Source: a virus
Virus record (IMG/VR): IMGVR_UViG_3300025889_018102
Coordinates: 91,950 to 155,949 of that record
DNA length: 64,000 nucleotides
Direction: 5' to 3' (one strand)
A model generated the notes under the pieces. The model did not search any database. It saw only the letters and a program-made list of their open reading frames with translations, and was not told the origin of the DNA. Below, piece by piece: positions 21,648-60,861 of this stretch. The first letter of the stretch is position 1. The number at the start of each line of letters is the position of its first letter. A program made the translations under genes and the position numbers.

Positions 21648-21754
21648 AGAAACAGTATTAGTGTTGTTATCATCATTCGCCACATAGCGAAGTATATACG
21701 GTTGTCAATGATTAATCAATAGAGAAGATAACTTTTTAAAAGTTTAAAAGAATA

Positions 21755-45010: not shown

Positions 45011-45469
45011 ATGAGTAAATATATTTCAACAAAAACCTATGGACATGAAAGAGGTTATGCCGTAGCATATCGCCAATGGAGAGCAGATACTCATTGTAAT
45101 AAAATTCATGGTTATGCTTTGGCTTTTCATTTTGAATTTGAATGTACTGAACTAGATAATAGAAATTGGTGCGTTGACTTCGGAGGATTCAAATCTCTAA
45201 AAGAAAAATTAGATGATTGGTTTGATCATACTTTATTAGTAGCAGAAGATGATCCCGAATTCAAAACCTTTGAAATGTTACATGAAAAGAAACTATGCAA
45301 AATGGTTGTTGTTGAAAAAACTGGATGTGAAGGATTAGCAAAGTTTCTTGCAGATTATATCCAAGATATTTGGATGGAAGAAAATGGTTATAATGATGGT
45401 CGTGTTAAATTAAGAATGGTTAAAGTAATGGAAACTCCTTCAAATTCGGCAATGTGGATTAATGAATAA
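45011..45469 (+). CDS. queD: QueD-like 6-carboxy-tetrahydropterin synthase
   Basis: A 152-residue T-fold protein. THCNKIHGYALAFHFEFE (residues 27-44) carries the C...HG motif, DFGGFKSLKEKLDDWFDHTLL holds the catalytic Asp-His region, and VMETPSNSAMW has the Glu of the substrate site. Two standard zinc ligands look altered: the usual AAH near residue 20 reads VAY, and HGH reads HGY. I have seen this RQWRA...HC..IHGYA variant in other phages and bacteria. It makes 6-carboxytetrahydropterin from dihydroneopterin triphosphate, feeding QueE. It overlaps gp47 by one base. Confidence 0.85.
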   Translation: MSKYISTKTYGHERGYAVAYRQWRADTHCNKIHGYALAFHFEFECTELDNRNWCVDFGGFKSLKEKLDDWFDHTLLVAEDDPEFKTFEMLHEKKLCKMVVVEKTGCEGLAKFLADYIQDIWMEENGYNDGRVKLRMVKVMETPSNSAMWINE

Positions 45470-46521
45470 TGCAAATAGCATTAGTTACCGATACGCACTT
45501 CGGAGCACGTTCCGATTCTATAATATACGATAAGTTTTTTGAAAAATTCTATACAGAGGTTTTCTTCCCCGAACTTGAAAAACGAGAAATAGATACTATC
45601 ATTCATCTAGGCGACGTTTTTGATAGAAGAAAATATATCAATTATGTTACTCTTAGATCCTGTAAACGATACTTCTTTGATGAACTAGAATCTAGAGGTA
45701 TTACAGCACATGTACTTACAGGTAACCATGATACAACATATAAAAATTCAAATGAGATTAATTCACCAGATATTCTTTTAATGGGTTATTCTAATATTAT
45801 TACTTATGCTAAACCTGAAGTAGTTAGAATAGGTGGAATCGATATTCTTATGATGCCATGGATCTGTGCAGCAACACATGATGAATCTATACAAATAATA
45901 AAAGAAGGTGCAGCTTCGGTATGTCTAGGACATTTTGAGTTCTCTGGATTCCCTATGTATAGAGGACAAGTAAGTGAAGATGGAATGGATCCTTCTCTTC
46001 TTGCGGATTATAAATTGGTTTGTTCAGGACATTATCATCATAGATCAGCTAATAAGAATATAGTTTATTTAGGCAATCCATATGAATTTACTTGGCAAGA
46101 TCATGGTGATCAAAGAGGATTTAATATTCTTGATACTGATACTTTGCAACTTGAATTTGTACTAAACCCTAATACAATTTTTGAAAAGATTTATTATAAT
46201 GATGAAAACACCGATTATAGCAAAGTATCAGTGAATAAGTATTCAAATAAAAATGTAAAACTTATTGTAGAAAAGAAAACAGATTTTTATATGTTTGATA
46301 AGTTTATTGATTCTTTGTATTCTTCTATACCATTAGATTTAAAGATTGTTGAAGATTTTTCTGATTTTGAATCGACAGAGGATAATGAATCTGTTAGTAT
46401 AGAGGATACGATGTCTTTACTTTCTTCATATGTTGATGCAGTGGAAACTCCTATGAATAAAGATAAAATAAAAACAATTTTAAAAAGTCTTTATGTGGAA
46501 GCACAGGTGTTAAACGAATGA
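45469..46521 (+). CDS. gp47: Recombination nuclease subunit gp47 (SbcD/Mre11)
   Basis: A 350-residue metallophosphatase: LVTDTHFG (D8, H10), HLGDVFDR (D49), LTGNHDTT (N86, H87), and GHYHHR late in the domain are the five phosphodiesterase motifs. With gp46 it resects DNA ends for recombination-dependent replication and helps degrade host DNA. It overlaps gp46 by 4 bp. Confidence 0.94.
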   Translation: MQIALVTDTHFGARSDSIIYDKFFEKFYTEVFFPELEKREIDTIIHLGDVFDRRKYINYVTLRSCKRYFFDELESRGITAHVLTGNHDTTYKNSNEINSPDILLMGYSNIITYAKPEVVRIGGIDILMMPWICAATHDESIQIIKEGAASVCLGHFEFSGFPMYRGQVSEDGMDPSLLADYKLVCSGHYHHRSANKNIVYLGNPYEFTWQDHGDQRGFNILDTDTLQLEFVLNPNTIFEKIYYNDENTDYSKVSVNKYSNKNVKLIVEKKTDFYMFDKFIDSLYSSIPLDLKIVEDFSDFESTEDNESVSIEDTMSLLSSYVDAVETPMNKDKIKTILKSLYVEAQVLNE

Positions 46522-48242
46522 GTGTAAATTTTGAAAAAATTAGATGGCGTAACTTTTTATCTACAGGTAACTCTTTTACAGAGATTCAATTAAATAGAAG
46601 CACAACTACATTAATTCTTGGCGAAAATGGTGCAGGCAAAAGTACTATTCTCGATGCCATTTGTTTTGCCCTTTTTGGTAAAGCATTTCGCAATATCAAT
46701 AAACCACAATTGATCAATTCTATTAATCAAAAAGAATTGATTGTTGAAGTAGAGTTTATAACTAATAAGAAGAAATATATTGTAACAAGAGGAATTAAAC
46801 CTAATATCTTCACTATATTTTGTAATGGGGTATTAGTTAATCAAGATGCTGCATCTAAAGATTATCAAAAAGTACTTGAGGAGCAAATTTTAAAATTTAA
46901 TTATAAAGCATTTACACAGATAGGTATTCTCGGTAGTGCATCTTTTACTCCTTTTATGCAGTTGCCTTTAGCACATCGTAGAGAAGTTATTGAAGATATT
47001 CTTGATATTCAGATCTTCTCTGTAATGAATACTTTACTTAAAGAAAAATTATCATTTAATAAAGATACTATTCGGGATCTTGATAGTAAAATAGAATTAC
47101 AGAAACAAAAAGCGAAGATGCAAAAAGATTTTATTAAAAAGATCGAAGATACAAGAGATAAAAAAGCAGAAGAAGTTCGTAATGAGATAGAAAAAACTAC
47201 TACAGAAATAGAAACTGCTCAAAAAACCATCGATCTATTAATGAATGATGTTACTGAAAAAAGAAAGAAAACTGACAGAAAAGATACATTAGAAAGTAAA
47301 CTAGTTAAAGTAAAAACAATGCAGCAGAAACTAGACACATGTAATGTAAAGTTATCAACTGAAATTGTTTTCTATAAAAATAATGATGAATGTCCAACAT
47401 GCAAACAATCTATTACACAGGAATACAAAGAAGATATCATTCAACAAAAACAAACTAAATATAAAGAAGTAGAAGAAGCAATTAAAAAATTAAATAAAGA
47501 TTTGAAAAAGATAACAAGAAGTATAGATACTATTGATCATCTTAATGATGAAATTGATGAACTAAACAAAAAGATCCATGAGCACAATAGTATCATTCTT
47601 GCGAGTGAACGATACTTAACCAAATTACGAAAACAAGAAACTCAACCAACAGATGATATAGTAAATAATTTAGATCAGGAGAAGAAGAAGTTAAAGGAAC
47701 TCGCTAAAGAAGTACTCAATTTATCCAATGAAAAAACATCTTTAAAAGAAGAACAAGAATATTACAATATCTGCACTCTATTGTTGAAAGATACAGGAAT
47801 TAAGACAAAAGTAATACGACAATATCTTCCTATCATTAACAAATTAGTAAATAAATATTTAACATTGATGGATTTCTTTGTTCATTTTGAATTAGATGAA
47901 GCCTTCAATGAAGTGATAAAATCCCGTCATAGAGATGAATTTAGTTATGCATCATTTAGTGAGGGTGAAAAACAACGTATAGATCTATCACTTTTATTTA
48001 CATGGAGAACAATAGCTAAAATGAAGAATTCAGTAAGTACAAATATTTTAATACTTGATGAAATCTTCGATAGTTCATTAGACAATAATGGTACAGATTT
48101 TCTTATGTCTCTTTTGAATACTTTGGGTGAAGAGACAAATCTTTTTGTAATCAGCCATAAACCAGATGCACTCTACGACAAGTTTCGTTCTGTAATCAGA
48201 TTCGAGAAACACAATAACTTCTCAGTAGTTAGAAGTGCTTGA
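46518..48242 (+). CDS. gp46: Recombination nuclease ATPase gp46 (SbcC/Rad50)
   Basis: A 574-residue SMC-like ATPase. The start, FEKIRWRNFLSTGNSF, then Walker A GENGAGKS (35-42), a long coiled coil interrupted by the zinc-hook CPTC (292-295), then the SFSEGEKQRIDLSLLFTW signature and ILILDEIFDSS Walker B. It partners gp47. The sigma70-like promoter of the next gene overlaps its last codons. Confidence 0.95.
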   Translation: MSVNFEKIRWRNFLSTGNSFTEIQLNRSTTTLILGENGAGKSTILDAICFALFGKAFRNINKPQLINSINQKELIVEVEFITNKKKYIVTRGIKPNIFTIFCNGVLVNQDAASKDYQKVLEEQILKFNYKAFTQIGILGSASFTPFMQLPLAHRREVIEDILDIQIFSVMNTLLKEKLSFNKDTIRDLDSKIELQKQKAKMQKDFIKKIEDTRDKKAEEVRNEIEKTTTEIETAQKTIDLLMNDVTEKRKKTDRKDTLESKLVKVKTMQQKLDTCNVKLSTEIVFYKNNDECPTCKQSITQEYKEDIIQQKQTKYKEVEEAIKKLNKDLKKITRSIDTIDHLNDEIDELNKKIHEHNSIILASERYLTKLRKQETQPTDDIVNNLDQEKKKLKELAKEVLNLSNEKTSLKEEQEYYNICTLLLKDTGIKTKVIRQYLPIINKLVNKYLTLMDFFVHFELDEAFNEVIKSRHRDEFSYASFSEGEKQRIDLSLLFTWRTIAKMKNSVSTNILILDEIFDSSLDNNGTDFLMSLLNTLGEETNLFVISHKPDALYDKFRSVIRFEKHNNFSVVRSA

Positions 48243-48266
48243 CATTCCTCTTAATACATGTATAAT
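48239..48266 (+). promoter_or_regulatory. Sigma70-type promoter 1 (TGCTTGACA family)
   Basis: TTGACA at 48239-48244, a 16-base spacer, then TATAAT at 48261-48266; both boxes are perfect consensus. Like three later promoters it is preceded by GC, giving GCTTGACA. It reads into the His-rich exported protein gene 27 bases downstream. Confidence 0.88.
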
Positions 48267-48292
48267 ATTCGTTCACTCGTTAGGAGATGTAC

Positions 48293-48622
48293 ATGAAAAA
48301 GACTCTTTTTGTTGCATTGATGTTGGCAGCAGGTGTTGTAAACGCACAACATCGAGGACATAATTATCATAGATATAACCATGGTCATCATCATGGTCAT
48401 CATCATGGTCATCATCATGGTCATCATTACAAATGGATAGGTCCTATGGTTGCTGGTGCTATAATCGGTGGTGCGGTAGTGTATACTCAGAGACAGTATA
48501 TACAACCTTCCACTATATACGTGGAAAAAGTACCGGAAAATCAAGTAGTTTGTGATTCTTGGATAGAAAAAATCGATCAAGATGGTAATGTTTCCCGCGA
48601 ACGAATTTGCTATCAACGATAA
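48293..48622 (+). CDS. Exported His-rich small protein
   Basis: A 109-residue protein from the ATG at 48293, six bases after AGGAG; an ATG at 48287 is too close to that site. KKTLFVALMLAAGVVNAQ is a Sec signal peptide with probable cleavage after VNA. It is followed by GHHHGHHHGHHHGHHY from a 12-bp DNA repeat, a hydrophobic Gly-rich WIGPMVAGAIIGGAVV that may be a membrane helix, and a C-terminal part with two cysteines (VVCDSW, RICYQR). Metal binding in the periplasm or at the cell surface is likely. It may be host-derived; phages of this type rarely carry such proteins, and I cannot name a function. Confidence 0.7.
   Translation: MKKTLFVALMLAAGVVNAQHRGHNYHRYNHGHHHGHHHGHHHGHHYKWIGPMVAGAIIGGAVVYTQRQYIQPSTIYVEKVPENQVVCDSWIEKIDQDGNVSRERICYQR
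48383..48427 (+). repeat. 12-bp GGTCATCATCAT tandem repeat
   Basis: Three perfect units and a fourth partial one encode repeated GHHH. The unit length keeps frame, so copy number could vary without loss of the protein. Confidence 0.9.
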
Positions 48623-48910: not shown

Positions 48911-48938
48911 TTGACAATTAGTTCAGACTCTGTATAAT
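48911..48938 (+). promoter_or_regulatory. Sigma70-type promoter 2 (TGCTTGACA family)
   Basis: TTGACA at 48911-48916, a 16-base spacer, then TATAAT at 48933-48938, again preceded by CTGC. It transcribes the GC-rich AAA+ ATPase gene. Confidence 0.88.
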
Positions 48939-48972: not shown

Positions 48973-49884
48973 ATGCAAGCAGCGAAGATCGTTTTTAGCA
49001 AGTCACTGAACAAGTATACTGCTATTGTCGGTTCTAAGATCATTGCAAAGTCGAGGAATCAGGACTATCTGGTCATGCGTATTGCTTCGATGGGTTACAC
49101 TCTCGCATCTGCACCTTCGATAGCAGAGCAGCAGAAGAAAGCAGATGAATTTGGCATTAATAAGCGGTTCGACTTTGTTGGTAAAATGGTCGATATGGTA
49201 TCAAGCAAGACCATCGCCTCTGCCGTAATTACAGGTCAAGGTGGTTTGGGTAAGACGCATTCGGTGCTGAAGGCTCTCGAAGAGTCTGGTATGCAGAACG
49301 TGACTGAACTCGCATCGTTCGAGGTCGGTGCCAAGGTTCAATCGTCAAATTCCTATCGCATCATCAAGGGATTTTCGACTGCTAAAGGTTTGTATCGAAC
49401 CCTGTTTGAGGGTAACGGTATGGTGCTGGTGTTTGATGATTGCGACAGTGTTCTTAAGGATCCTGTTGCATTGAATTTGCTTAAGGGTGCTCTTGATTCT
49501 TACTCGGAGCGTTATATCAGCTGGAATGCTGACATTCGAGATGAAGATCTTCCTCGTTCATTCAAGTTCACGGGCTCTGTTATCTTTATCTCTAATATGG
49601 ATCTGGACTCAATCGATCAGGCAGTTCGTTCCCGCGCTCTTTGCGTGGATGTATCGATGACAGAAGAGCAGAAGGTTGAGCGGATGGAGAAGATCATCGA
49701 GGACAAGGAGTTTCTGCCAGAATATTCGATGGAACAAAAGATTGAATCTATCGCATTCATCAAGATGTGTCTCAAAGAGATTAGCAATTTGTCTCTGCGG
49801 TCGTTGATTGCGACAGTTAAAATTCGTTCGCGGGGTGGAGATTGGAAGTCTCTTGCAAAATATATTCTCACCCAAGGAGCTTAA
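48973..49884 (+). CDS. AAA+ ATPase, GC-rich island gene
   Basis: A 303-residue ATPase from the ATG at 48973, which has GAGGG five bases upstream; TTG and ATG codons 15 and 12 bases earlier are less likely. Residues 1-50 form a separate leader (KIVFSKSLNKYTAIVGSK). Walker A GQGGLGKT is at 88-95, Walker B MVLVFDDCDSV at 150-160, and SVIFISNMDLDSIDQAVRSRALCVDV provides sensor 1 and Arg finger. Hand-counted lines are near 48-50% GC, against 30-37% in lines sampled nearby, and codons such as CTG and GTC are common. It lies before the zinc-ribbon, zincin-VWA and MoxR genes; joint function is inferred. Confidence 0.8.
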   Translation: MQAAKIVFSKSLNKYTAIVGSKIIAKSRNQDYLVMRIASMGYTLASAPSIAEQQKKADEFGINKRFDFVGKMVDMVSSKTIASAVITGQGGLGKTHSVLKALEESGMQNVTELASFEVGAKVQSSNSYRIIKGFSTAKGLYRTLFEGNGMVLVFDDCDSVLKDPVALNLLKGALDSYSERYISWNADIRDEDLPRSFKFTGSVIFISNMDLDSIDQAVRSRALCVDVSMTEEQKVERMEKIIEDKEFLPEYSMEQKIESIAFIKMCLKEISNLSLRSLIATVKIRSRGGDWKSLAKYILTQGA

Positions 49885-49888
49885 TGTA

Positions 49889-50092
49889 ATGGTAATAAAA
49901 GTAATTGAGCGTAAGTTACAAAAAAATCTAGTTAAAGAAACTATATGCCATTGTTGTAATAACACTCTAGAATATACATCTGAAGATGTACATGAATATA
50001 GAGAATATGACTTCGATCTGCGCGGTGATATAGTATACTATATCGAATGCCCAGCTTGTTTTCAGAGAACTCATGTAACAGGAAAAGTTTAA
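49889..50092 (+). CDS. Small zinc-ribbon protein
   Basis: A 67-residue protein from the ATG at 49889, four bases after the ATPase stop. Cysteines C20, C22, C23 (ICHCCNN) and C54, C57 (CPAC) form a zinc-ribbon pattern, with an acidic stretch between. It could bind RNA, DNA or a protein partner. Its neighbours are AAA+ genes, so an adaptor role is possible; not recognised. Confidence 0.65.
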   Translation: MVIKVIERKLQKNLVKETICHCCNNTLEYTSEDVHEYREYDFDLRGDIVYYIECPACFQRTHVTGKV

Positions 50093-50100
50093 AATGCTGC

Positions 50101-50129
50101 TTGACATCTTCTCTTGTAGCATTTATAAT
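50101..50129 (+). promoter_or_regulatory. Sigma70-type promoter 3 (TGCTTGACA family)
   Basis: TTGACA at 50101-50106, 17-base spacer, TATAAT at 50124-50129, preceded by CTGC. It reads the zincin-VWA gene, whose GTG start at 50155 is preceded by AAGGAG. Confidence 0.88.
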
Positions 50130-50154
50130 ATAAAAAATTGTTAAGGAGTTAAGA

Positions 50155-52218
50155 GTGATTTTATCCCAATCAAAGTCAATTCTAGCAAAGCTTCTTGCTG
50201 AAGAAGATATTAATGTGCAACATAAGAATGTCTCAACTGCCTACTTTGAGTTGAAGAATAGAACACTTGTCTGCCCTATATGGAAAGACATGACTGCAGA
50301 TGTATATGATCTTCTAATGGGGCATGAAGTCGGACATGCTCTCTTTACTCCTGCTGAAGGGTGGCATAATGCCATTGATAAGAAGAATTCAAAGGGATTT
50401 AAAACCTATCTAAATGTAGTTGAGGATGCTCGAATTGAGAGGATGATTAGAGGAAAATTTCCTGGGCTTCGTAAATCCTTTTACTCCGCATATAGAATTC
50501 TATTTGATAATGATTTCTTTGGAGTGAAAAAATATAATCTAGATGTAGAGAAGTTGCCTTTGATTGATAGAATCAATCTTCATTTTAAACTTGGTTCTAT
50601 TCTCAATCTAAAATTCAATACAGCAGAACAATATTATGTAGATAAGGTTGATACTTGTCAGACGTGGAGTGATGTAGAGAAAGTATCTACTGAGATATAT
50701 GATTATGCGAAAAAGACTGAATCTAATCTTCTCCACTTTGATATCATGGATGAGATGATGGATCAGGATGGAGAAGATGCTGATTCAGATTATTATGAAG
50801 AAGTAGATGAAGAAGTAGATGAAGAAATAGATCCTATATCTATCACGGATCAAGAATTTAGAAATCGTGAGAGTGATCTGAGAGAAGAATCTTCTGAAGA
50901 TACTATTTATCTTACTTTACCTAAGATGAATTGGAGACCTCGAATTATTGGCTATAAAACAGTATATAAGAATATTGCTCAAAGTTATTATGATGTCTAC
51001 AAAAACTATGATCTCGCAATTCTTTCCGATATCGAAGTAGAAAGAAACAAACTATTTTCAGAGTTTAAAAAGAAAAATGAGAAATATGTTGCTTATATGG
51101 TCAAGGAATTTGAGTTGAGGAAAAATGCTCAGCAATTTGCAAGAGCAGCAGTATCAAAGACAGGTGAGCTTGATACCAAGAAACTTTTTTCATATAAAAT
51201 TGCTGATGATCTCTTTAAACGCATGACTATCATCCCTAATGGTAAAAATCATGGGTTGATTATGTTTATTGATTTTTCTATGTCAATGCATGATCATTTT
51301 AAGGCAACAATAGAACAAACTATTCTATTAGCAATGTTCTGCAGAAAAATTAATATCCCCTTTCATGTTTACTCGTTTACTAATGCCGCAGACCTATATA
51401 AGGAAATCCCCACAGTAGCAGAAGAACAAAAAATTCCATTATTCCCTAATGTAGAAGATGGTAATCCTATCTTCCCAGAACGAGGATTTAGACTACGTGA
51501 GTATATTAATTCAAGAATGTCTAGCCGTGAATTTAAACATGCGTTGAAAGTTCTTCTACTTATTGCTGAATCCTATACATATAACAATAAATTTGTAATG
51601 CCTTATTCAGAAAAACTAAATTCTACTCCTTTGGATGAAGCTATTATCGCCGCTATTCCTCTGGTAAAAGAATTTAAAAAAGTTAATAAACTTGATATTG
51701 TGAATACTATCTTTCTTTCAGATGGAGAGTCTGATGGTTGCACATCATATAATGTTATAAACAATAACGGGGCAACATATCTGCCTAGATATTCTTCAAC
51801 TCGTATAATCACTGATCCAGAAACTAAACTACAAGGGCTATCACATAGTAAGCAACCTCTTACGTGTGCTTTACTTCAACTATTTAAACAGTTAACCGAT
51901 TCTAATGTTGTTGGATTCTTCTTGGCAGGTAATACAAGATCTAAGATCCATAAATATATCTCAATTTATAGTTCTAAACTTCTTACAGAAGAAAATTTTA
52001 AGAAATTTAGAAAACAAAAATATTATGAGATCAATGGTGGAGGTTATGATAGTTTCTTTATTCTTACAGGTGGAAAGGATCTAGAAATTAATGATGATGG
52101 TATAGAGGTATCTGAAAAAGCATCTAAGAATGAATTGAAAAAGGCATTTATTCTCAACAGAAATAAAAAGAATTTTAATCGTATGTTTCTTAACAGATTT
52201 GCTGAGATTATCTCCTAA
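50155..52218 (+). CDS. HExxH metallopeptidase-like and VWA domain protein
   Basis: A 687-residue protein starting at GTG with AAGGAG at optimum spacing. The N-terminal part has MGHEVGHALFTP, a zincin HExxH at residues 57-61, then LNVVEDARIERMIRGKFPG, where the Glu/Asp would be further ligands. An acidic stretch of Asp/Glu repeats stands near residues 205-230. The C-terminal VWA domain has the MIDAS DFSMS (near residue 370), a STPLDEAI threonine region and FLSDGESDG. It resembles CobT-like proteins that pair with MoxR/CobS ATPases; the HExxH part makes it unusual. Such pairs use ATP to change or insert metal in partner proteins. The AAA+ partner is downstream under its own promoter. Confidence 0.8.
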   Translation: MILSQSKSILAKLLAEEDINVQHKNVSTAYFELKNRTLVCPIWKDMTADVYDLLMGHEVGHALFTPAEGWHNAIDKKNSKGFKTYLNVVEDARIERMIRGKFPGLRKSFYSAYRILFDNDFFGVKKYNLDVEKLPLIDRINLHFKLGSILNLKFNTAEQYYVDKVDTCQTWSDVEKVSTEIYDYAKKTESNLLHFDIMDEMMDQDGEDADSDYYEEVDEEVDEEIDPISITDQEFRNRESDLREESSEDTIYLTLPKMNWRPRIIGYKTVYKNIAQSYYDVYKNYDLAILSDIEVERNKLFSEFKKKNEKYVAYMVKEFELRKNAQQFARAAVSKTGELDTKKLFSYKIADDLFKRMTIIPNGKNHGLIMFIDFSMSMHDHFKATIEQTILLAMFCRKINIPFHVYSFTNAADLYKEIPTVAEEQKIPLFPNVEDGNPIFPERGFRLREYINSRMSSREFKHALKVLLLIAESYTYNNKFVMPYSEKLNSTPLDEAIIAAIPLVKEFKKVNKLDIVNTIFLSDGESDGCTSYNVINNNGATYLPRYSSTRIITDPETKLQGLSHSKQPLTCALLQLFKQLTDSNVVGFFLAGNTRSKIHKYISIYSSKLLTEENFKKFRKQKYYEINGGGYDSFFILTGGKDLEINDDGIEVSEKASKNELKKAFILNRNKKNFNRMFLNRFAEIIS

Positions 52219-52226
52219 GATTTTGC

Positions 52227-52255
52227 TTGACATCTGATTCTAGTTATATTATAAT
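52227..52255 (+). promoter_or_regulatory. Sigma70-type promoter 4 (TGCTTGACA family)
   Basis: TTGACA at 52227-52232, 17-base spacer, TATAAT at 52250-52255, preceded by TTGC. It reads the MoxR/CobS-type ATPase gene at 52288. Confidence 0.88.
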
Positions 52256-52287
52256 ATATTTTTAACATTGAAGAAGGGATATACATT

Positions 52288-53454
52288 ATGGCACGCACTA
52301 GTTTTTATACTCCTGAGCAACAAAAGAAAGTTATTTCTCAACTAGTTGAGAAGTTTGGTCCAATTGTTACTAGGAAACAGATTCTTTCTTTTATTGAAGA
52401 AAACAAATATCCCTTTCCATTCTTCATCTTTAATTTTGGTACATATAAAAGTGGTCATGGATTGTATAATTTTATCGTCAATGCACCTGTGGCCAAGAGT
52501 GAAGAAAAAGTTATTGAAACTGAACCCGCAATGGCAGTAGTTCCTCTACGGCAGAAACGTATGCATACAGAAGTAGACAATCTTGTTCCTGAAAAAGATT
52601 CGACATATGTTCCTTTTGGATTTTTCAAGGATCTAGAATCGATTATTCGTTCATATGAATTCTATCCCGTGTTTATCACTGGACTTTCTGGTAACGGTAA
52701 GACAACAATGGTTGAGCAAATCTGTGCTCGTATTAAGAGGGAATGTATTCGTATCAATGTATCAATTGAGACAGATGAAGATGATCTAATTGGTGGAAAT
52801 ACTCTTGTAGATGGCAATATCGTTTATCGTGAAGGACCATTTCTAACTGCAATGAAACGTGGTGCTGTAGTCATTCTAGATGAAATTGATCGTGGATCTA
52901 ATAAACTAATGTGCTTGCAAGCTATTCTAGAAGGTAAACCATATTTCAATAAAAAGACAGGTGAGGTTGTACATGCAGCTAGGGGCTTTAATGTAATTGC
53001 AACAGCAAATACTAAAGGACGAGGTACTGAAGATGGAAAGTTTATTGCTGCTCAGATTCTCGATGAAGCATTTCTAGAACGGTTTCCCATTACAATTGAA
53101 CAAGAATATCCTTCTTCATCAGTAGAAAAAAAGATTATTATTAATAATATGGATGTACATAATTGCACAGATGAAAGTTTTGCAGATAAACTGGTAACAT
53201 GGGCAGATATCATTCGCAAAACCTTCCAAGAAGGTGCTATCGATGAACTCATTTCTACTCGTCGTCTAGTTCATATTGTTAAAGCCTATAGCATGTTTAA
53301 AGATAAACAGAAAGCAATTCAACTTTGTATCAATAGGTTCGATGAAGAAACTAAAGGTGCTTTTTTAGATCTTTATTCTAAAATTGATACTGAAACACAA
53401 CCTATTCAAGAACAACCACAACAAGAAGTAACACCTGAAAATACTGCAGTATAA
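52288..53454 (+). CDS. cobS: MoxR/CobS-type AAA+ ATPase
   Basis: A 388-residue protein. Residues 1-70 are an N-terminal domain resembling DNA-binding or CobS leaders (FYTPEQQKKVISQLVEKFGP). Walker A GLSGNGKT (132-139), IETDEDDLIGG (MoxR helix region), Walker B VVILDEID (194-201), sensor 1 VIATANTKGRGT and Arg-finger ERFPI are present. T4-like cyanophages commonly annotate this gene as cobS, cobaltochelatase subunit. The cobNT partners are absent, and its nearest partner is the zincin-VWA protein, so a MoxR-VWA chaperone role fits equally. A strong hairpin terminator follows. Confidence 0.85.
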   Translation: MARTSFYTPEQQKKVISQLVEKFGPIVTRKQILSFIEENKYPFPFFIFNFGTYKSGHGLYNFIVNAPVAKSEEKVIETEPAMAVVPLRQKRMHTEVDNLVPEKDSTYVPFGFFKDLESIIRSYEFYPVFITGLSGNGKTTMVEQICARIKRECIRINVSIETDEDDLIGGNTLVDGNIVYREGPFLTAMKRGAVVILDEIDRGSNKLMCLQAILEGKPYFNKKTGEVVHAARGFNVIATANTKGRGTEDGKFIAAQILDEAFLERFPITIEQEYPSSSVEKKIIINNMDVHNCTDESFADKLVTWADIIRKTFQEGAIDELISTRRLVHIVKAYSMFKDKQKAIQLCINRFDEETKGAFLDLYSKIDTETQPIQEQPQQEVTPENTAV

Positions 53455-53500: not shown

Positions 53501-53526
53501 TATATAAAAACAATGTGGAAAATATA

Positions 53527-54531
53527 ATGAAGAAAGTTGCTTTAATTACAGGTATTACAGGTCAAGATGGATCTTATCTAGCAGAACTTTTACTTGAAAA
53601 AAATTATGAAGTACATGGTATAATTCGCCGTAGTTCTTCTATTAATACAAGTAGAATTGATCATGTATATGAGCATCCAAATCTAAAATTACATTATGGT
53701 GATGTTACTGATTCTCTTTCTCTAACTTCTATTATTCAAAAAGTATGTCCTAATGAGATATACAATTTAGCGGCTCAGAGTCATGTTAAAGTCTCCTTTG
53801 AGATACCTGAATATACAGCTCAAGTTGATGCTGTAGGGACATTGAGAATATTAGAAGCAGTTAGATTTCTAAAATTAGAAAAAGTAACAAAAATTTATCA
53901 AGCATCGACATCTGAACTATATGGATTGGTGCAAGAGACTCCTCAAAAAGAAACTACTCCGTTCTATCCTCGTTCCCCCTATGGAGTGGCGAAACTATAT
54001 GGATATTGGATAGTAAAAAATTACCGAGAAGCATATAATATGTTTGCTTGTACTGGTATACTTTTCAACCATGAGTCACCTCGCCGTGGACATAATTTTG
54101 TGACTAAGAAGATTGTAGATGGATTAAGAAATATCTGTAAGGGTAAACAAGATGTATTATATTTGGGCAATTTAAATGCAAAGCGTGATTGGGGACATGC
54201 AAAAGACTATGCTAGAGCAATGTGGTTAATGATGCAACAAGAAACACCTGATGATTATGTTATTGCAACAGGGGAGCAGTATTCAGTTAAAGAATTTATT
54301 GAAGAGTGTGCTCCTCATTTCAAAATGAGTATATATTGGGAGGGCGAGAGTGAAAACGAAGTGGGTTATGATCGTTTTACTGGTCAACCAGTAATTAGAG
54401 TTGATCCGAGATATTTTCGACCATCAGAAGTAGATTCTTTATTAGGTGATGCCACAAAAGCAAGAGATGTATTGGGATGGAAACCTGAATATACATTTGA
54501 AAAATTAGTGAATGAGATGTGCAATGAATAA
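53527..54531 (+). CDS. gmd: GDP-mannose 4,6-dehydratase
   Basis: A 334-residue short-chain dehydrogenase-type enzyme. The ATG at 53527 gives the family start [19 protein letters not shown] with GxxGxxG for NADP; a GTG 12 bases earlier is less likely. [29 protein letters not shown], and ASTSELYG with [11 protein letters not shown] (catalytic Tyr-Lys) complete the picture, with HESPRRG and W[11 protein letters not shown] downstream. It converts GDP-mannose to GDP-4-keto-6-deoxymannose, precursor of GDP-fucose and GDP-colitose. Start of the sugar operon; overlaps the next gene by 8 bp. Confidence 0.95.
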
Positions 54532-55462
54532 ACATGAGAAAATTTTTGTTGCAGGACATAGAGGTTTAGTTGGATCTTCATTAGTTAGACGTCTAACTGA
54601 ACTAGGTTATAGTAATATACTAGTGGTGGATAAAGAAAAAGTAGATCTTAGATTCCAAACAGCAGTTAATCAATTTTTTGAAAAAGAAAAACCCGATTAT
54701 GTTTTCTTAGCTGCAGCTAAAGTAGGTGGCATTAACTACAATGCCACTCATCCAGCTGATTTTATCTTCGATAATCTTGCTATACAGAACAATGTAATCA
54801 ATGCAGCTTGGCATGTAAATTGTAAAAAGTTATTATTTTTAGGTAGTGCATGTATCTATCCTAAAGTCACACCACAACCTATTAAAGAAGAGTATTTACT
54901 CACTGCACCATTAGAACCTACTAATGAACCATACGCACTAGCAAAGATTGCAGGTCTACGCATGTGTCAGGCGTATCATAAACAATTTGGTTTCAATGCT
55001 ATCAGTGTTATGCCTGCTAATCTGTATGGTATTAATGATAATTTTCACCCTGATAGATGCCACGTAATTCCTGGTATGATTAACAAGTTTTACAATGCTA
55101 AAGTAAACAATCTACCACAAGTTGAGGCATGGGGAGATGGAACACCTACGCGAGAATTTTTGTATGTAGATGATTTAGCAGATGCTTGTATTTTTCTTAT
55201 GAATTATTATGATTCACCCGATCATATTAACATTGGTAGTGATGTTGAAATTACTATCAAAGATCTTTCTGATATCATTAAAAAGAAGATTGGTTATGAA
55301 GGTGAAATCTTTTGGAACATCAATAAACCTAATGGTACTCCTCGTCGTAAAATTGACAATGAAAAGTTATTTTCTCTTGGGTGGAGACCAAAAGTGTCAT
55401 TTGAAGAAGGATTAGAGAGATCTGTAAATTGGTTTATTGCTAATAAGGATAGATTTCTATGA
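54524..55462 (+). CDS. fcl: GDP-L-fucose synthase / ColC-like epimerase-reductase
   Basis: A 312-residue SDR enzyme from the ATG at 54524. [19 protein letters not shown] has the NADP motif, [18 protein letters not shown] and GSACIYPK (Ser) with [10 protein letters not shown] (Tyr-Lys) are the conserved active-site blocks of GDP-fucose synthase, then [16 protein letters not shown]. It converts GDP-4-keto-6-deoxymannose by 3,5-epimerisation and 4-reduction to GDP-L-fucose. ColC, which makes GDP-L-colitose, is a close relative; since the next gene looks like colD, that use is possible. Both sugars may be made. Confidence 0.9.
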
Positions 55463-56625
55463 GATGGCCTTTGATGGGTGAAACAATTACCTTTATGGAT
55501 AGAGTCAAGATGGCTAAGTTCGTACTTACTACCAAAAGATTTACTAATGGTAAAAAAGTATATGATTTTGAAAAACAATGGAGTGAGTGGTTAGGGTGTA
55601 AACATTCACTTTTTGTTTCAAGTGGTAGTACAGCAAACTTTCTTCTCATTGCTGCAGTAAAAGAACATTTTAAGTTACAGCCCGGTGATAAAGTTTTGCT
55701 ACCCGGATGTACTTGGATGACTAATGTCGCACCAATTATTCAATTGGGGTTACAACCTATCTTTTGTGATATCAATTTACAAGATTTTAGTTTTGATTAT
55801 AACGAAGTTTGTGCAATAGAAAAAGTTCATCGAGATATTAAACTAATTTTTACCACACATTTACTAGGTTTTCCTAGTGATTGCTCTGTATTAAGAACTA
55901 TTTTTCCAAAAGCTCTTATACTAGAAGATATATGTGAATCACATGGGTGTATTATACGTAGTAATTTTCCAGAAAAAGTTGGATCAAAAAGTTTAGGTGC
56001 CACATTTAGTTTTTATTTTGGTCATCATATGTCCACAATTGAAGGTGGAATGGTATGCACAAATAATGAAGATCTTTATGATCTCATGAGAATGAAACGT
56101 AGCCATGGATTAGCGCGTGAATCAACTTGGTACGATGTTTATGCTAATGCTTATCCACATATCGACAAACAGTTTCTTTTTATGACGGATGGTTATAACT
56201 TTAGAAATCATGAGATCTGTGCTGTTTTAGGTATTGAACAACTTAAACGTTTAGATCGCATGAATGAACAACGTGAAAGAAATTATAAAAATTATTGTGA
56301 AATAATTAAGTATTATGATAGATTATTCTATCCACACCAGAGAGATTTTTATGCTAGTAGTTTTTGCTTTCCCTTCATTTGTAGAAAAGAAGATACAATG
56401 AAGAAACTTAAACAAGTATTCATTAAGAACGGTATTGAGTATAGACCAATTGTGAGTGGCAATCTTTTGGAACAACCTTTCTTAAAATCTTATTCATTAA
56501 CAACTACAAAGAAGATTACCAATCTTGATATTATTCAGAAAAAAGGTGTGTATATTGGTAACAATCACTTTGTCAAAGATAAAGATATGCAGTTTCTTCA
56601 CAAAATTATTGGAGAAGTATTATGA
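55459..56625 (+). CDS. ColD-like GDP-4-keto-6-deoxymannose 3-dehydratase
   Basis: A 388-residue DegT/DnrJ/EryC1-family protein overlapping the previous gene by ATGA. SSGSTANFLLI (phosphate site), PGCTWMTNV, LEDICESHG (Asp of the PLP ring) and FSFYFGHHMSTIEGG are seen. In the last motif most members have Lys as PLP anchor; here it is His (H189). His in that position marks 3-dehydratases such as ColD and E1; E. coli ColD is also 388 residues. It would remove the 3-OH of GDP-4-keto-6-deoxymannose on the way to GDP-colitose. A GDP-perosamine synthase reading is disfavoured by the missing Lys. Confidence 0.82.
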   Translation: MRWPLMGETITFMDRVKMAKFVLTTKRFTNGKKVYDFEKQWSEWLGCKHSLFVSSGSTANFLLIAAVKEHFKLQPGDKVLLPGCTWMTNVAPIIQLGLQPIFCDINLQDFSFDYNEVCAIEKVHRDIKLIFTTHLLGFPSDCSVLRTIFPKALILEDICESHGCIIRSNFPEKVGSKSLGATFSFYFGHHMSTIEGGMVCTNNEDLYDLMRMKRSHGLARESTWYDVYANAYPHIDKQFLFMTDGYNFRNHEICAVLGIEQLKRLDRMNEQRERNYKNYCEIIKYYDRLFYPHQRDFYASSFCFPFICRKEDTMKKLKQVFIKNGIEYRPIVSGNLLEQPFLKSYSLTTTKKITNLDIIQKKGVYIGNNHFVKDKDMQFLHKIIGEVL

Positions 56626-56966
56626 TAGGTGTTTCAATAGAGGAAACAATTAAGCAAGCAGTAGAGAAAACTCTAACACAAAGAACTCTACCCGATACTG
56701 AATATGTTGCTACAGACAATTTGGGTGAGGTTATAGAGAAGTTAGTAATTCTTCACATTCGTACTTGGATGTTAGAGGATGCAATTCAAGGAGCAAAGAC
56801 TGATGCTGAGATTGCAGAGCTAAAGCGCAAAATAGATATTTGCTTTAAAGTAAAAAGACCAAAATTTGTTCAAGCTATTAATCTAATGATCGATGATTGT
56901 ATTGTAAGAAACAAAAGTTTAGTTGAAGATTCAGTTAAACTTTATAAAGGTATCGATAGTGTTTAA
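56622..56966 (+). CDS. Small DUF4254-like protein of the sugar operon
   Basis: A 114-residue helical protein: VIEKLVILHIRTWMLEDAIQGAKTDAEIAELKRKIDICFKVKRPKFVQAINLMIDD. The W..ED......D.EI...KR.ID..... pattern recalls DUF4254 proteins found in bacterial O-antigen and capsule clusters. The protein is shorter than full DUF4254 members. Function unknown. It overlaps the ends of both neighbours, so it is part of the operon. Confidence 0.6.
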   Translation: MIGVSIEETIKQAVEKTLTQRTLPDTEYVATDNLGEVIEKLVILHIRTWMLEDAIQGAKTDAEIAELKRKIDICFKVKRPKFVQAINLMIDDCIVRNKSLVEDSVKLYKGIDSV

Positions 56967-57879
56967 CAGAATAGTATTCTTCAATCACTTTCACCGTGGT
57001 GATCTTTTTACTCATAAAGAGTTCGTTCGTGAGATAAAAAAATCATTAAAAAATGTGGACTATGAGTATTGGCATTTTAACCATCCTAAAGTTAATCTTG
57101 ATCTACAAATTCCATTGACTGGTGTTCCTAAAGTACCCAAAAATCATTTATTTTATAGACATGAAGATACTCTTCTGATTAATACTTGGATTGGTGTGCA
57201 TTCACAGATTTTTAATGAATGTGGAGGAGTAAATCTACAATCGTTATCTAGAAGTTGGACAACAATATATGAGACCATTAATAGTTTATTTAATGTTAAT
57301 CTGGTTACTTACAACGACATTACTAAGTATCTTCCCACAGTTAATTACTCTTTTTTCAATTTAGAATCTATTGAAGTATACTTGAAGCAAAGATCATCAC
57401 AAAAAAAGGTGCTAATCTGTAATGGTATACCAATGTCGGGTCAATCTTTTCAATCCTCAATGGAGGCTGAGATTCAAGAGTTTGCCCTTAAGTATAAAGA
57501 TATAGATTTCATTTGTACTAAAAAGTTTAATTGTAGTATTCCTAATATATGTTTCACAGATGAAATTATTGCTGATAAAGAAGAATACACTTATAAGACT
57601 CCATGGAATGATAGAAGTTTAAACAATTGTGATCTAAACGAGATATCGTATTTGAGTACAAAATGTGATATGATTATAGGGAAGAACTCAGGTCCATTCG
57701 TTTTCTGTGAAACCTATAATAATCTGATGGATTCCACAAAAAAGATTATCTCGTTTAGTCGTGGTGAAAGAGAATCGATGTCTAACGGAATAGATAAGAA
57801 GTGTGATTACCATTTAGTTACAGATCATTCACCTGACAATATAAAGTACATTATTGAAAGAGAGTTGAATAAATTATGA
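56959..57879 (+). CDS. Putative glycan-biosynthesis protein (GT-B-like)
   Basis: A 306-residue protein from GTG at 56959, which overlaps the previous stop; an upstream TTG lies in the earlier gene. FNRIVFFNHFHRGDLFTHKEFVREI resembles the start of glycan-transferring proteins, and the C-terminal KCDMIIGKNSGPFVFCETYNN is like the nucleotide-sugar side of GT9/GT-B enzymes. No membrane helices. Its place between DUF4254-like and GT10 genes backs a role in surface glycan synthesis. The family is not recognised with certainty. Confidence 0.55.
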   Translation: MFNRIVFFNHFHRGDLFTHKEFVREIKKSLKNVDYEYWHFNHPKVNLDLQIPLTGVPKVPKNHLFYRHEDTLLINTWIGVHSQIFNECGGVNLQSLSRSWTTIYETINSLFNVNLVTYNDITKYLPTVNYSFFNLESIEVYLKQRSSQKKVLICNGIPMSGQSFQSSMEAEIQEFALKYKDIDFICTKKFNCSIPNICFTDEIIADKEEYTYKTPWNDRSLNNCDLNEISYLSTKCDMIIGKNSGPFVFCETYNNLMDSTKKIISFSRGERESMSNGIDKKCDYHLVTDHSPDNIKYIIERELNKL

Positions 57880-58772
57880 AACAAAAACTGAAACTAGGAT
57901 TTACTGATACACATGACCATCTAGCATCATTCTTTTATCACATTCTCTCTAAAAGATATGATATTGAGATTGATAATGAGAAACCAGAGTTTCTCATCTT
58001 TGGTGATGAAAATTTTGGTACAAATAACAAAAACTTTTCAAAGCTGGATTGTATTAAAATTTTTTACACTGGTGAAAATCGTAGACCAGAAAATTATGAT
58101 TGCCATTATGCAATAACTTTTGATCATAACTTTAATCCATGGCATTATCGGTTGCCTCTGTTTATGATCTATATTTGGTCTTTAGAGAATATACATAAAG
58201 CACCTTATCCCCAGGACTATATTCTAGAGAATCATATTCAACCTAAGACAGATTTCTGTTCTTTTGTTGTAAGTAATGGTGGATGTAAGGAGAGAAATGA
58301 TTTTTTTCAAAAATTAAATGAAAGAAAACTAGTTCATAGTGCAGGTAGACATTTAAAGAATGTTGATGTACAATTAGATACTGAAGTAGATAAGATCAAC
58401 TACTTAGCTAAACATAAGTTTAATATTTGCTTTGAAAGCGGATCTCATCCTGGTTATGTAACAGAAAAGATTCTTCATGCTTTTTATGCTGGTACAGTGC
58501 CAATCTATTGGGGTAGTCCTACAGTATCACTTGACTTCAATCCAAATGCTTTTATCAATGTTCACAGTTATAAAGATATAAACCATTGTATTGAAACAAT
58601 TATGGCTATATATAATGATGATGAACTGTATAATAGAATTTTGACTCAACCAAAGTTTCCTTTTAACATTCCTCCTTCTTATTATCTTTATGATAATTTT
58701 TTAAATTGGTTTGATGCTATTGTTTATAGAAAGATTGAATCGAGAGATGCAAATACACTCATTTATTTTTAA
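57876..58772 (+). CDS. GT10 fucosyltransferase-like enzyme
   Basis: A 298-residue protein. KIFYTGENRRPENYDCHYAITFD (residues 61-83) and FNICFESGSHPGYVTEKILHAFYAGTVPIYWGSP (182-215) are the two hallmark motifs of alpha-1,3/4-fucosyltransferases such as those of Helicobacter pylori. They bind GDP-fucose in the C-terminal domain. With gmd and fcl upstream the phage may both make and use GDP-fucose; GDP-colitose as donor is an alternative given the ColD-like gene. It overlaps neighbours by 4 and 26 bp. Confidence 0.88.
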   Translation: MKQKLKLGFTDTHDHLASFFYHILSKRYDIEIDNEKPEFLIFGDENFGTNNKNFSKLDCIKIFYTGENRRPENYDCHYAITFDHNFNPWHYRLPLFMIYIWSLENIHKAPYPQDYILENHIQPKTDFCSFVVSNGGCKERNDFFQKLNERKLVHSAGRHLKNVDVQLDTEVDKINYLAKHKFNICFESGSHPGYVTEKILHAFYAGTVPIYWGSPTVSLDFNPNAFINVHSYKDINHCIETIMAIYNDDELYNRILTQPKFPFNIPPSYYLYDNFLNWFDAIVYRKIESRDANTLIYF

Positions 58773-59463
58773 TTGGCGAGGTCAATATGAAAAAGCCAAA
58801 TATAAAGAAAAACAATTAAAAGATCTTGGATTAAAAGTTACTGTTATTAATAGTGATGATACAGTAACTGCACAAGAGGTTGATTGGATCAATATAGGAG
58901 AATGTTCTTATTTTACATCTCAATTTTTAATGGCGTTAAAATTATTTGATGGTGATATTTTATTCCATATTCAGGCAGATGCATCTTATGATAATTGGAA
59001 TAAATTGATTGAAGATGCAAAGATATATTATGAAAAGTATAAATGGGGGATATATGCACCTAATGTAGACTATACATGGTATGATTCTACGAGAACAGAT
59101 ATTTCTCAAGTAAAGTTTAGAGATGATGCCAATTTGAGATTAATATCTTGTCCTGATTGTACCTGTTGGTTTATACATAAAGATATAATAGAAGAGTTTA
59201 ATAATAGACAGATTGATATGAGTCCATATAAAATGGGGTGGGGTTGGGATATTATTTTTCCAGGAATAAGTTTTCTGAAGAGTAGATTGGTCATTAGAGA
59301 CTATAATCATACGATAGAGCATCCTCCGGGAACCAACTATAATAAGAACCAAGCTGAAGTTGAGATGCAGCAGCTTTTCAATTCTCTCCCCAATGATCTA
59401 AAAGTTATGTTTAGTTTGATTAAAGGTGATCGTCAACAAATTTTACAAATGTTCAAAAAATAG
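58747..59463 (+). CDS. GT-A type glycosyltransferase-like protein
   Basis: A 238-residue protein from the ATG at 58747 inside the GT10 gene. IHSFIFNWRGQYEKAKYKEKQL at the start, LFHIQADASYDNW (acidic QADAS as DxD type) at about residues 80-92, CPDCTCWFIHKDI, and KMGWGWDIIF near residue 165 as acceptor-side motif, fit GT2-like transferases. Sugar unknown. It follows the operon's tight spacing. Confidence 0.65.
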   Translation: MQIHSFIFNWRGQYEKAKYKEKQLKDLGLKVTVINSDDTVTAQEVDWINIGECSYFTSQFLMALKLFDGDILFHIQADASYDNWNKLIEDAKIYYEKYKWGIYAPNVDYTWYDSTRTDISQVKFRDDANLRLISCPDCTCWFIHKDIIEEFNNRQIDMSPYKMGWGWDIIFPGISFLKSRLVIRDYNHTIEHPPGTNYNKNQAEVEMQQLFNSLPNDLKVMFSLIKGDRQQILQMFKK

Positions 59464-59465
59464 AT

Positions 59466-60164
59466 ATGAAAAAACTATTATCCTTTTCTGTGTGGGGAAA
59501 TAATCCTCGTTATGTGGTGGGAGCACATCGTCAAATTGAACTTGCTAATAAGTATTTTCCTGATTGGAATATTAGAATTTATACTGATAATTATTCAAAC
59601 TTTAAGAAATATCAGTATGTTGAGTTAGTAAGATGTGAAGATGGTTCACCAGGATTATTTTGGAGATTCTTTCCTTTATTTGAAGATACTTATGACATTA
59701 TAGCGAGTAGGGACTCAGATAGTAGGTTTTCATTCAGAGAATGCAAAGCTATGAAAGAGTTTGTTGAGAGTGGTAAACGATTTCATGTTATTCGAGATCA
59801 CGAAGCACATTTTCAATTTCCAATCATGGGGGGGATGTTTGCATGTAAGGGTGGATTACCTATCTCTCTAAGAGAGGTGATGATTGACTTTATGCTAAAA
59901 CAAAAAGAATATTTAAGTGATCAAATTTTTCTGCGCGACTTTGTTTGGAAAGATGTTGAAAGTGATACGCTTATTCATAGTATGAATGAAGGTTGGTTCG
60001 GTGAAACAAGAGCAAAGTTAAAGAATCGCTTTTCTTTTTGTGGAAACGGATATGATGAGCATGACATGCCTTTGTATGCTCCAACACTAAAGGAATGTGT
60101 TGGGTTTAACCCAAAAAATGTACAAACACAGTATAGGTTTGATTTTGGGCAACTAAATGACTAA
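59466..60164 (+). CDS. Glycosyltransferase-like protein with DSDSR motif
   Basis: A 232-residue protein. KLLSFSVWGNNPRYVVGAHRQIELANKYFPDWNIRIYTD is the N-terminal nucleotide-sugar fold, LFWRFFPLFEDTYDIIASRDSDSRFSFRE holds the DxD (DSD near residue 83), and FPIMGGMFACKGG is a likely acceptor loop. It resembles GT8/GT32-like proteins from bacterial capsule loci. It overlaps the next gene by 8 bp. Confidence 0.62.
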   Translation: MKKLLSFSVWGNNPRYVVGAHRQIELANKYFPDWNIRIYTDNYSNFKKYQYVELVRCEDGSPGLFWRFFPLFEDTYDIIASRDSDSRFSFRECKAMKEFVESGKRFHVIRDHEAHFQFPIMGGMFACKGGLPISLREVMIDFMLKQKEYLSDQIFLRDFVWKDVESDTLIHSMNEGWFGETRAKLKNRFSFCGNGYDEHDMPLYAPTLKECVGFNPKNVQTQYRFDFGQLND

Positions 60165-60861
60165 AGTTATAGTTCATCATCATTTGGGACTAGGTGATCA
60201 TTTTATATGTAATGGTATAGTCAATGCCCTTTCAAAACAGGTGAAAATTTATCTAGTCTGCAAAGAAAATTATTATGAAACTGTTAGTTATCTATATACA
60301 GATAATTTCAATGTAAAATTAATACCTCTATATAACGATAGCTACTTTGGTGAATTTGAACAGGTATCTCATATTCAAAAAGTTCTACAGAAAGACTTAA
60401 TAAGAATAGGATTTCAAAACATAGAACATACACATTTTGATAGAAATTTTTATGAGTCAGTTGAAATGCCTTTCGAGTATAGATATACAATGTTTAGATT
60501 GCCTAAAGTTAATCAAAAGGCATCTAAACTATATCAACAGCTATCACATGGGCAAGAATATGTACTGGCACATCGTCAATCGAGCGAATCTAAATATAAT
60601 ATAAATATAGACACACATTTGCCTGTAATTGATGTTGATCTTAGAGTTTCTCAAAATATGTTGAATTGGATTGATCTAATAAAGGGTGCTTCTCAGATTC
60701 ACTGTGTTCCTAGCAGCTTTTACTGCTTAGTTGATAGTATAGCGTCTACTCTCGAGGGTAAGTTGTTTTATCATGATATTAGAAAGGGTACCCTTCTAAA
60801 TCCAAATAACGAGTTTAATAATAACTGTTGGAATGTAATATCTTATGCTTCCAAACTATAA
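60157..60861 (+). CDS. GT9-like small glycan protein
   Basis: A 234-residue protein starting TKVIVHHHLGLGDHFICNGIVNALSK, the GLGD....NG start of GT9-type proteins. GASQIHCVPSSFYCLVDSIAS near residues 180-200 corresponds to the ligand-binding SS..H/C motif. It is shorter than classical heptosyltransferases. Likely a step in the same glycan route, unknown sugar. It shares its last 17 bases with the next gene. Confidence 0.6.
   Translation: MTKVIVHHHLGLGDHFICNGIVNALSKQVKIYLVCKENYYETVSYLYTDNFNVKLIPLYNDSYFGEFEQVSHIQKVLQKDLIRIGFQNIEHTHFDRNFYESVEMPFEYRYTMFRLPKVNQKASKLYQQLSHGQEYVLAHRQSSESKYNINIDTHLPVIDVDLRVSQNMLNWIDLIKGASQIHCVPSSFYCLVDSIASTLEGKLFYHDIRKGTLLNPNNEFNNNCWNVISYASKL

Follow-up and report, generated by a model that had tools for sequence, protein, structure and literature searches.

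What does a gene labeled cobS do in a T4-like phage, and which of its neighbors work with it? The question is raised by the virus record IMGVR_UViG_3300025889_018102 of IMG/VR (155,949 bases, possibly incomplete), bases 91950 to 155949 of which form the 64,000-nucleotide stretch analyzed here, referred to below as the window. By its gene content, the window belongs to a T4-like phage. A search of the whole record turned up no psbA-type gene, so a photosynthetic host is not indicated. In T4-like cyanophages, cobS is listed as a core gene in the passages available from PMC3037559, and excerpts of PMC2984593 and PMC9723779 either call its effect unknown or describe it as an increase in B12 or nucleotide synthesis. 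An earlier note on the window had grouped four genes at positions 48973 to 53454 into a cassette: two AAA+ ATPases, a zinc-ribbon open reading frame (ORF), and a protein with both HExxH and metal ion-dependent adhesion site (MIDAS) motifs. It suspected that the cobS label hides another role and saw in the cassette an undescribed machine that takes over or destroys a host complex. All four ORFs were recovered by motif, PHROG, and Pfam matches. The motifs, the early promoters, and the suspicion about cobS stood, while the four-gene cassette and its undescribed status fell. What emerges instead is a two-gene pair, a MoxR-type AAA+ ATPase next to a VWA protein with an intact-looking zincin site. 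Judging from the sequences, it has about an even chance of being an early AAA+/gluzincin remodeler that acts on DNA-linked proteins.

The conserved unit comprises two genes

Linkage of the four genes was followed in 102 VWA loci, one of them the window's own copy. In 80 of these loci a CobS-type gene was present, and in 64 of the 80 the two open frames lie within 108 bases of each other. No CobS-type gene was found in the other 22, of which 11 have at least 1.8 kb of sequence downstream and gave no match to a CobS profile either (L055, L057 to L059, L063, L065, L070, L071, L080, L082, and L088). When whole records were searched, CobS (E value of 1e-70 or better) was detected in 22 of 26 VWA-bearing records, and the four misses are linear records of 46 to 74 kb. 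In the record of L080, CobS lies about 18 kb away from the VWA gene. The CobS match in the record of L093 (G019; 20940 to 21836) spans six stop codons, which suggests a damaged gene or a record in which some stops are read as sense; the part that was read lacks the N-terminal region.

Of the 26 VWA-bearing records, four contain a strong match to the first AAA+ gene (phrog_1250); two of the four come from near-identical viruses, and only in these two does the gene adjoin the pair. Weak matches occurred in three more of these records, and two of them fall on annotated clamp-loader genes. This protein matches 1,233 phage records, approximately 70 percent of which are named after enterobacteria. 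Among the 102 loci, the zinc ribbon turned up nowhere but in the window's virus and a near-identical relative. The four-gene cassette was therefore rejected, the first AAA+ gene and the zinc ribbon being unlinked to the pair elsewhere. These two genes are neighbors in the early block and not conserved parts of the pair. Because only the HExxH-VWA and CobS-type genes recur together, we regard the two genes at 50155 to 53454 as the functional unit; from sequence comparison, this pair and its architecture are very probably assigned correctly.

Other phages were inspected for comparable blocks. Bacteroides phage DAC16, which has a relative of the first AAA+ gene, was considered as a second AAA-zincin block and dismissed, as the next three genes, inspected by eye, encode no HExxH-VWA protein. 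T4 showed no phrog_249 match, and the neighbor of its nrdC.10 gene, nrdC.11, is annotated as a nucleotidyltransferase. Listeria phage LP-125 contains a CobS-like AAA_5 gene (L179:4737-5753); no HExxH or DxSxS motif was seen in three proteins read near it.

The VWA protein carries a conserved candidate zinc site

HExxH is present in 101 of the 102 VWA loci, and the sole exception (L015) is truncated before the motif. A loss of HExxH in most relatives, which the earlier note had named as a point that would speak against its proposal, was thus not seen. Two sets of locus-sampling patterns were built on the HExxH and EDxRI stretches and yield biased samples; with patterns not built on those stretches, the motif was found in 16 of 17 loci, the remaining one being the truncated L015. 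Residues H57, E58, H61, E90, D91, R93, and I94 and the MIDAS residues D373, S375, S377, T491, and D523 are invariant in all 14 rows of one alignment and all 58 rows of another. The 58 rows are the window protein plus 57 of 89 candidates, which had been filtered beforehand for HExxH and for length; HExxH is therefore invariant there by construction. A strict MIDAS expression matched 82 of the 102 loci and a strict Glu-helix expression 98, not every miss having been inspected. The near-identical L002 aside, the window protein is 22 to 53 percent identical to the members of the 14-row alignment, and it is matched by 463 of 50,697 phage records. It matched no Pfam family at E values up to 1, and comparison of the phage profile with the sequences of solved structures returned no convincing relative. 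A Chromatiales protein (L138:3176-5440) has EDARIE and VWA motifs and no HExxH; it may be another degenerate relative.

An AlphaFold2 model of the full protein (58 rows; mean predicted local distance difference test score [pLDDT], 79.7; predicted template modeling score, 0.75) places HExxH and E90 on two different predicted helices, which is a gluzincin-like arrangement. Since a Foldseek search with this model gave mainly VWA-type chains, the N-terminal part was modeled alone (first 205 residues; 55 rows; pLDDT, 87.6). All of the 19 best rows were zincin-type metalloproteins with Z scores of 4.7 to 7.0 (ZMPSTE24, 7.0; ArdC, 6.3), the fold class of the top rows (ZMPSTE24, BlaR1, ArdC, BepA, minigluzincins, and IrrE/PprI) being in part our own assumption. 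The zincin fold is probable rather than proven, because no row reaches a Z score of 8 and the best Foldseek E value is 0.13. The VWA domain was best matched by the NorD VWA domain of the NorQD complex (9qhd_G; Z score of 16.1 over 229 residues at 4.0 Å), with the MIDAS domains of midasin at 13.7 to 15.1 and generic VWA domains at about 12. From the conserved residues and the models, we consider it likely that the protein is an active metallopeptidase.

The pair is related to CobS and CobT, with no CobN in the records searched

The CobS-type protein has a variable N-terminal region ahead of its AAA+ core in most aligned rows and a CbbQ_C lid that scores 28 bits against a cut-off of 20.6. Among solved structures, its sequence matched midasin, cobaltochelatase CobS (E value of 5.5e-23), CbbQ, and NorQ. 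The match to the CobS equivalog TIGR01650 reached an E value of 3.4e-23 but a score of 82.3 bits, far below the curated cut-off of 558.55. For the VWA protein, a bridging set of seven homologues from a plasmid, genome contigs, and phages was used in profile comparisons. Its alignment with CobT extended over most of the length (E value of 2.6e-30), and that with the phage family over the N-terminal part only (2.6e-24). When the phage and CobT profiles were compared directly, 71 columns spanning the HExxH-ED region could be aligned (probability, 68.6; E value, 4.6e-5). The homology of the phage VWA protein to CobT is thus real but distant, and the window protein itself matched neither of the CobT families PF06213 and PF11775.

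Genuine CobT proteins were chosen by homology from one order, that of a Rhodobacteraceae bin, which is a narrow sample; 61 of 61 genomes matched PF06213, and 30 loci plus one more were read. HExxH was absent from all 31 of these proteins. Four of five distant relatives from genome contigs retain it, as do the proteins of an IncC plasmid and a Microbulbifer plasmid and those of Vibrio phage ICP2, a Rhizobium phage, SSU5, CRP-810, a Cobavirinae phage, phage OC, HTVC008M, and S-RIM12. CobN was found in none of the 28 records searched, 26 of them VWA bearing, although the host may have one. The label cobS is probably misleading, as the earlier note had suspected, and the conserved zinc-site residues argue, against Liu et al. 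(2021), for "peptidase" as the label of the partner.

Promoters of the early type precede both genes

All genes between 48.2 and 53.5 kb are on the plus strand, and four perfect sigma70 promoters with spacers of 16 or 17 bases precede genes of this block (Table 1), which we therefore consider to be of the early type, in agreement with the earlier note. In the whole window, perfect TTGACA/TATAAT matches with spacers of 16 to 18 bases occur five times on the plus strand and not at all on the minus strand. When one mismatch was allowed, 8 plus-strand and 3 minus-strand matches were counted versus 0 to 6 in 20 single-strand simulations. Across the whole record, with a spacer of 17 only, there are nine perfect promoters, all on the plus strand and two of them in the block.

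The pattern was then compared across 82 non-redundant loci, in which promoters with at most one mismatch were counted in the 110 bases before the first possible start. Such promoters precede 36 of 77 VWA and 33 of 62 CobS starts, compared to 30 of 166 other genes of those loci and 0 of 139 shuffled stretches. The opposite distribution was seen for TATAAATA, which is given as the late-promoter form of T4-like phages in the portion of PMC2984593 available: this string lies upstream of 1 of 77 VWA and 0 of 62 CobS starts versus 12 of 166 other genes. In the window, it stands directly upstream of virion-type genes at 25447, 31586, and 32733, whose identities were assigned by eye. A copy at 53450 overlaps the end of the CobS gene and lies upstream of sugar-type genes. 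Expression of cobS has been reported for phage S-SSM5 (PMC9723779, in the part accessible, where no expression class was seen for it).

Inspected relatives of the pair lie near replication and recombination genes

In the window, gp47/gp46-type genes at 45469 to 48242, homologues of which are annotated as recombination endonuclease in S-RIM12 and HTVC008M, lie upstream of the block. Among 75 VWA loci with 5 kb or more of sequence on one side, redundancy not having been removed, 61 contain homologues of gp46, gp47, gp44, gp45, or uvsW within the fetched stretch. Outside this group, HExxH-VWA and CobS-type genes lie near ssb-bet-exo in an IncC plasmid; near RecT, exonuclease, and toprim genes in a Microbulbifer plasmid; and near a toprim/primase-type gene in a Zhongshania contig. 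Among phages, their neighbors are a primase and a helicase in Vibrio phage ICP2, a DNA polymerase and a primase/helicase in a Cobavirinae phage, ligase and DNA polymerase III alpha in SSU5 and the Rhizobium phage, and endonuclease V in CRP-810. In both plasmids and, by Pfam, in two contigs, the VWA gene follows a DUF3150 gene. The Zhongshania VWA protein matched 1,128 of 72,556 plasmid records, and 930 of the matched plasmids are predicted to be conjugative; just 433 matches covered at least 80 percent, so that the remaining ones may share only part of the protein. The plasmid neighborhoods weigh most among the context evidence.

A proposed mechanism and its alternatives

The CobS-type protein would, like others of its family, form a MoxR/NorQ-like ATPase ring. 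The VWA domain of its partner, judging from its fold and family, would dock on this ring and recruit a substrate through the MIDAS, as in NorQD, CobST, and midasin. The ring may then pull on or remodel the substrate by means of ATP, and the N-terminal gluzincin domain, with its intact and conserved site, would cut it. The predicted promoters suggest that the pair is made early in infection. The substrate is most likely a protein that acts early on the DNA of the element. It could take part in replication or recombination, form a roadblock on the DNA, or be a host factor that attacks this DNA; we do not take it for a cobalamin enzyme. We favor a DNA-acting substrate because relatives in unrelated phages and in the two inspected plasmids lie near replication, recombination, or repair genes; as a guess from the neighborhood, an early DNA-linked substrate is put forward tentatively, at somewhat less than even odds. 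The zincin site, its absence from the CobT proteins read, the missing CobN, the early promoters, and the neighbors together point to an early protein-remodeling protease.

Several observations count against this proposal. The 11 loci with room downstream have no adjacent CobS gene, the structural similarity of the N-terminal model is modest, and the distant homologue of Vibrio phage ICP2 lacks the Glu of the E-D motif. The loci of S-RIM12, HTVC008M, AG-345-L05, and phage OC have no promoter within one mismatch, only ones with two to four, and a record-wide scan at up to two mismatches does not beat a reversed-pattern control (48 + 26 versus 30 + 67). The neighborhoods outside Kyanoviridae were inspected and not randomly sampled, and proximity alone is weak evidence because early and replication genes cluster in phage genomes.

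Other explanations, not fully exclusive of this one, were weighed against the same data. The view of the earlier note, a machine that dismantles a specific host complex early in infection as a means of takeover or counterdefense, draws on the early promoters, on the relatives on conjugative plasmids, and on the resemblance of the modeled protease domain to the antirestriction protein ArdC. Counterdefense genes would usually be patchy, whereas the pair is reported for the cyanophage core (PMC8651126, as far as the passages available go) and is syntenic here; PADLOC returned only weak AAA-type matches, for the first AAA+ protein and CobS. Destruction of a host complex by the pair is possible, and a dedicated counterdefense role strikes us as rather unlikely. 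Virion assembly, in which the MoxR-VWA pair would serve as chaperone and cochaperone while the metallopeptidase processes structural proteins, was proposed for group 2.2 jumbo phages, which encode a MoxR AAA+ protein and a VWA protein with an N-terminal metallopeptidase domain, by analogy with the tail-assembly MoxR-VWA pair of an archaeal virus (Iyer et al. 2021, PMC7824862, in the excerpts available). The promoters speak against this role here: both genes follow early-type promoters, whereas TATAAATA precedes the virion-type genes of the window and hardly ever the pair in its relatives, and homologues of the VWA protein occur on plasmids. Assembly chaperones can be produced ahead of structural proteins. 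Virion assembly is thus given a small share of the probability.

An enzyme-activating role would have the pair remodel a metalloenzyme, such as ribonucleotide reductase, in the manner of NorQD or CbbQO and insert or restore its cofactor, with HExxH handling the metal. The NorD-like VWA domain and the CbbQ_C lid fit this idea, as does a gene annotated yfaE (class I ribonucleotide reductase maintenance; L141:11610-11834) about 2.8 kb after the VWA gene in the IncC plasmid stretch. A metal-handling partner of the CobT type needs no HExxH, however, since the homologous CobT proteins read lack it, and the combination of HExxH and a downstream Glu is that of peptidases; we consider this role improbable. 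Least probable is the cobalamin explanation, in which phage CobS and CobT borrow the host CobN to form a cobaltochelatase and raise B12. Liu et al. (2021) propose such a hijack and take "peptidase" for a mistaken label. The homology to CobT and the matches to TIGR01650 and solved CobS chains are real, but the CobS-type score falls far short of its cut-off, the window VWA protein lacks any Pfam match, CobN was absent from the records searched, and HExxH, missing from the CobT proteins of the order read, is kept in the phage and plasmid proteins.

Beyond the window, we offer as a speculation that the phage pair and its plasmid and chromosomal-contig homologues constitute a single machine found across mobile elements. 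Its AAA+ unfoldase ring, with a zincin as adaptor, would clear or cut proteins bound to the element's own DNA while this DNA is replicated or recombined. By analogy, and with the same reserve, such a machine might function like Cdc48 with the DNA-protein-crosslink proteases Wss1 and SPRTN. If so, assigning the phage and plasmid "cobST" genes to B12 synthesis would have been a misreading, and the CobT of cells would be a related protein without the protease site it once had.

Relation to known systems

The pair itself is already known in phages. A cobST-type cluster has been reported for the cyanophage core (PMC8651126) and a MoxR/metallopeptidase-VWA pair for phages in 2021 (PMC7824862), as far as the parts of these papers available go, and the earlier note's view of it as a candidate for an undescribed system is not supported. 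With the Kyanoviridae "peptidase" and "CobS" pair (phrog_459 and phrog_249), the window pair shares families, order, adjacency, and the place downstream of gp46; it differs in the other early-block neighbors and in the sugar-type genes, recognized by eye, that follow. The jumbo-phage pair shares the domain plan of a MoxR AAA+ protein beside a VWA protein with an N-terminal metallopeptidase domain, and its proposed assembly role does not fit the promoters of the window. The likeness to its proteins, ASV44728.2 and ASV44729.1, is one of domain plan; a PHROG search gave a local match to phrog_1576 (E value of 7.3e-7). Cobaltochelatase CobS-CobT has a homologous AAA+ protein and a homologous N-terminal/VWA protein but differs in the lack of HExxH in the CobT read and in its CobN, absent from the 28 records searched. 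NorQ-NorD and CbbQ-CbbO share the CbbQ_C lid, and the NorD VWA domain is among the best structural matches, tied with midasin. The VWA, DUF3150, and AAA genes of conjugative plasmids share HExxH, an E-D-type motif, MIDAS, and a nearby CobS-type AAA gene; they differ in the extra DUF3150 gene and in the bet/RecT and exonuclease genes that adjoin in the two plasmids opened, and their profile aligns with the phage family over the N-terminal part only.

At the level of titles and abstracts, no published link to replication or recombination and no comparison of HExxH with CobT turned up. The present analysis adds a contrast with genuine CobT, a comparison of promoters, and the replication and recombination setting of the relatives, none of which appeared in the literature passages and listings examined. 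These comparisons make the function of the pair testable at single residues, in tests that would separate the two conflicting published readings.

Features of the block and its surroundings

Table 1. Coordinates of genes, motifs, and promoters in the early block of the window
Feature	Position	Strand	Remarks
Perfect sigma70 promoter, TTGACA-N16-TATAAT	48239-48266	+	Upstream of His-rich ORF 48287-48622
Perfect sigma70 promoter	48911-48938	+	Upstream of first AAA+ gene
First AAA+ ATPase, T4 nrdC.10 family	48973-49884	+	ATG at 48973; GQGGLGKT Walker A-like (by eye); phrog_1250, E 1.1e-55
Zinc-ribbon ORF, 67 residues	49889-50092	+	Two CxxC pairs (by eye); phrog_2834, E 2.2e-9
Perfect sigma70 promoter	50101-50129	+	Upstream of HExxH-VWA gene
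Putative gluzincin-VWA protein, 687 residues	50155-52218	+	phrog_459 "peptidase," E 1e-181
HExxH, residues 57-61	50323-50337	+	Within predicted helix 48-64
E90-D91-x-R93	50422-50433	+	Within predicted helix 80-101; candidate third zinc ligand, E90
MIDAS DxSxS, residues 373-377	51271-51285	+	Completed by T491 and D523
Perfect sigma70 promoter	52227-52255	+	Upstream of CobS-type gene
CobS/NorQ/CbbQ-type MoxR AAA+ ATPase, 388 residues	52288-53454	+	phrog_249; AAA_5, E 1.1e-18; CbbQ_C, E 2.6e-6

The block opens with a His-rich ORF of 111 residues that has its own perfect promoter, a signal-like N terminus, and HGHHHGHHH repeats; no PHROG match was obtained at an E value of 0.1. Directly after the CobS gene, a run of genes resembling those for sugar nucleotides and glycosyltransferases (53515 to 62867; named by eye and not by search) occupies the place where gp45 and gp44 stand in many relatives.

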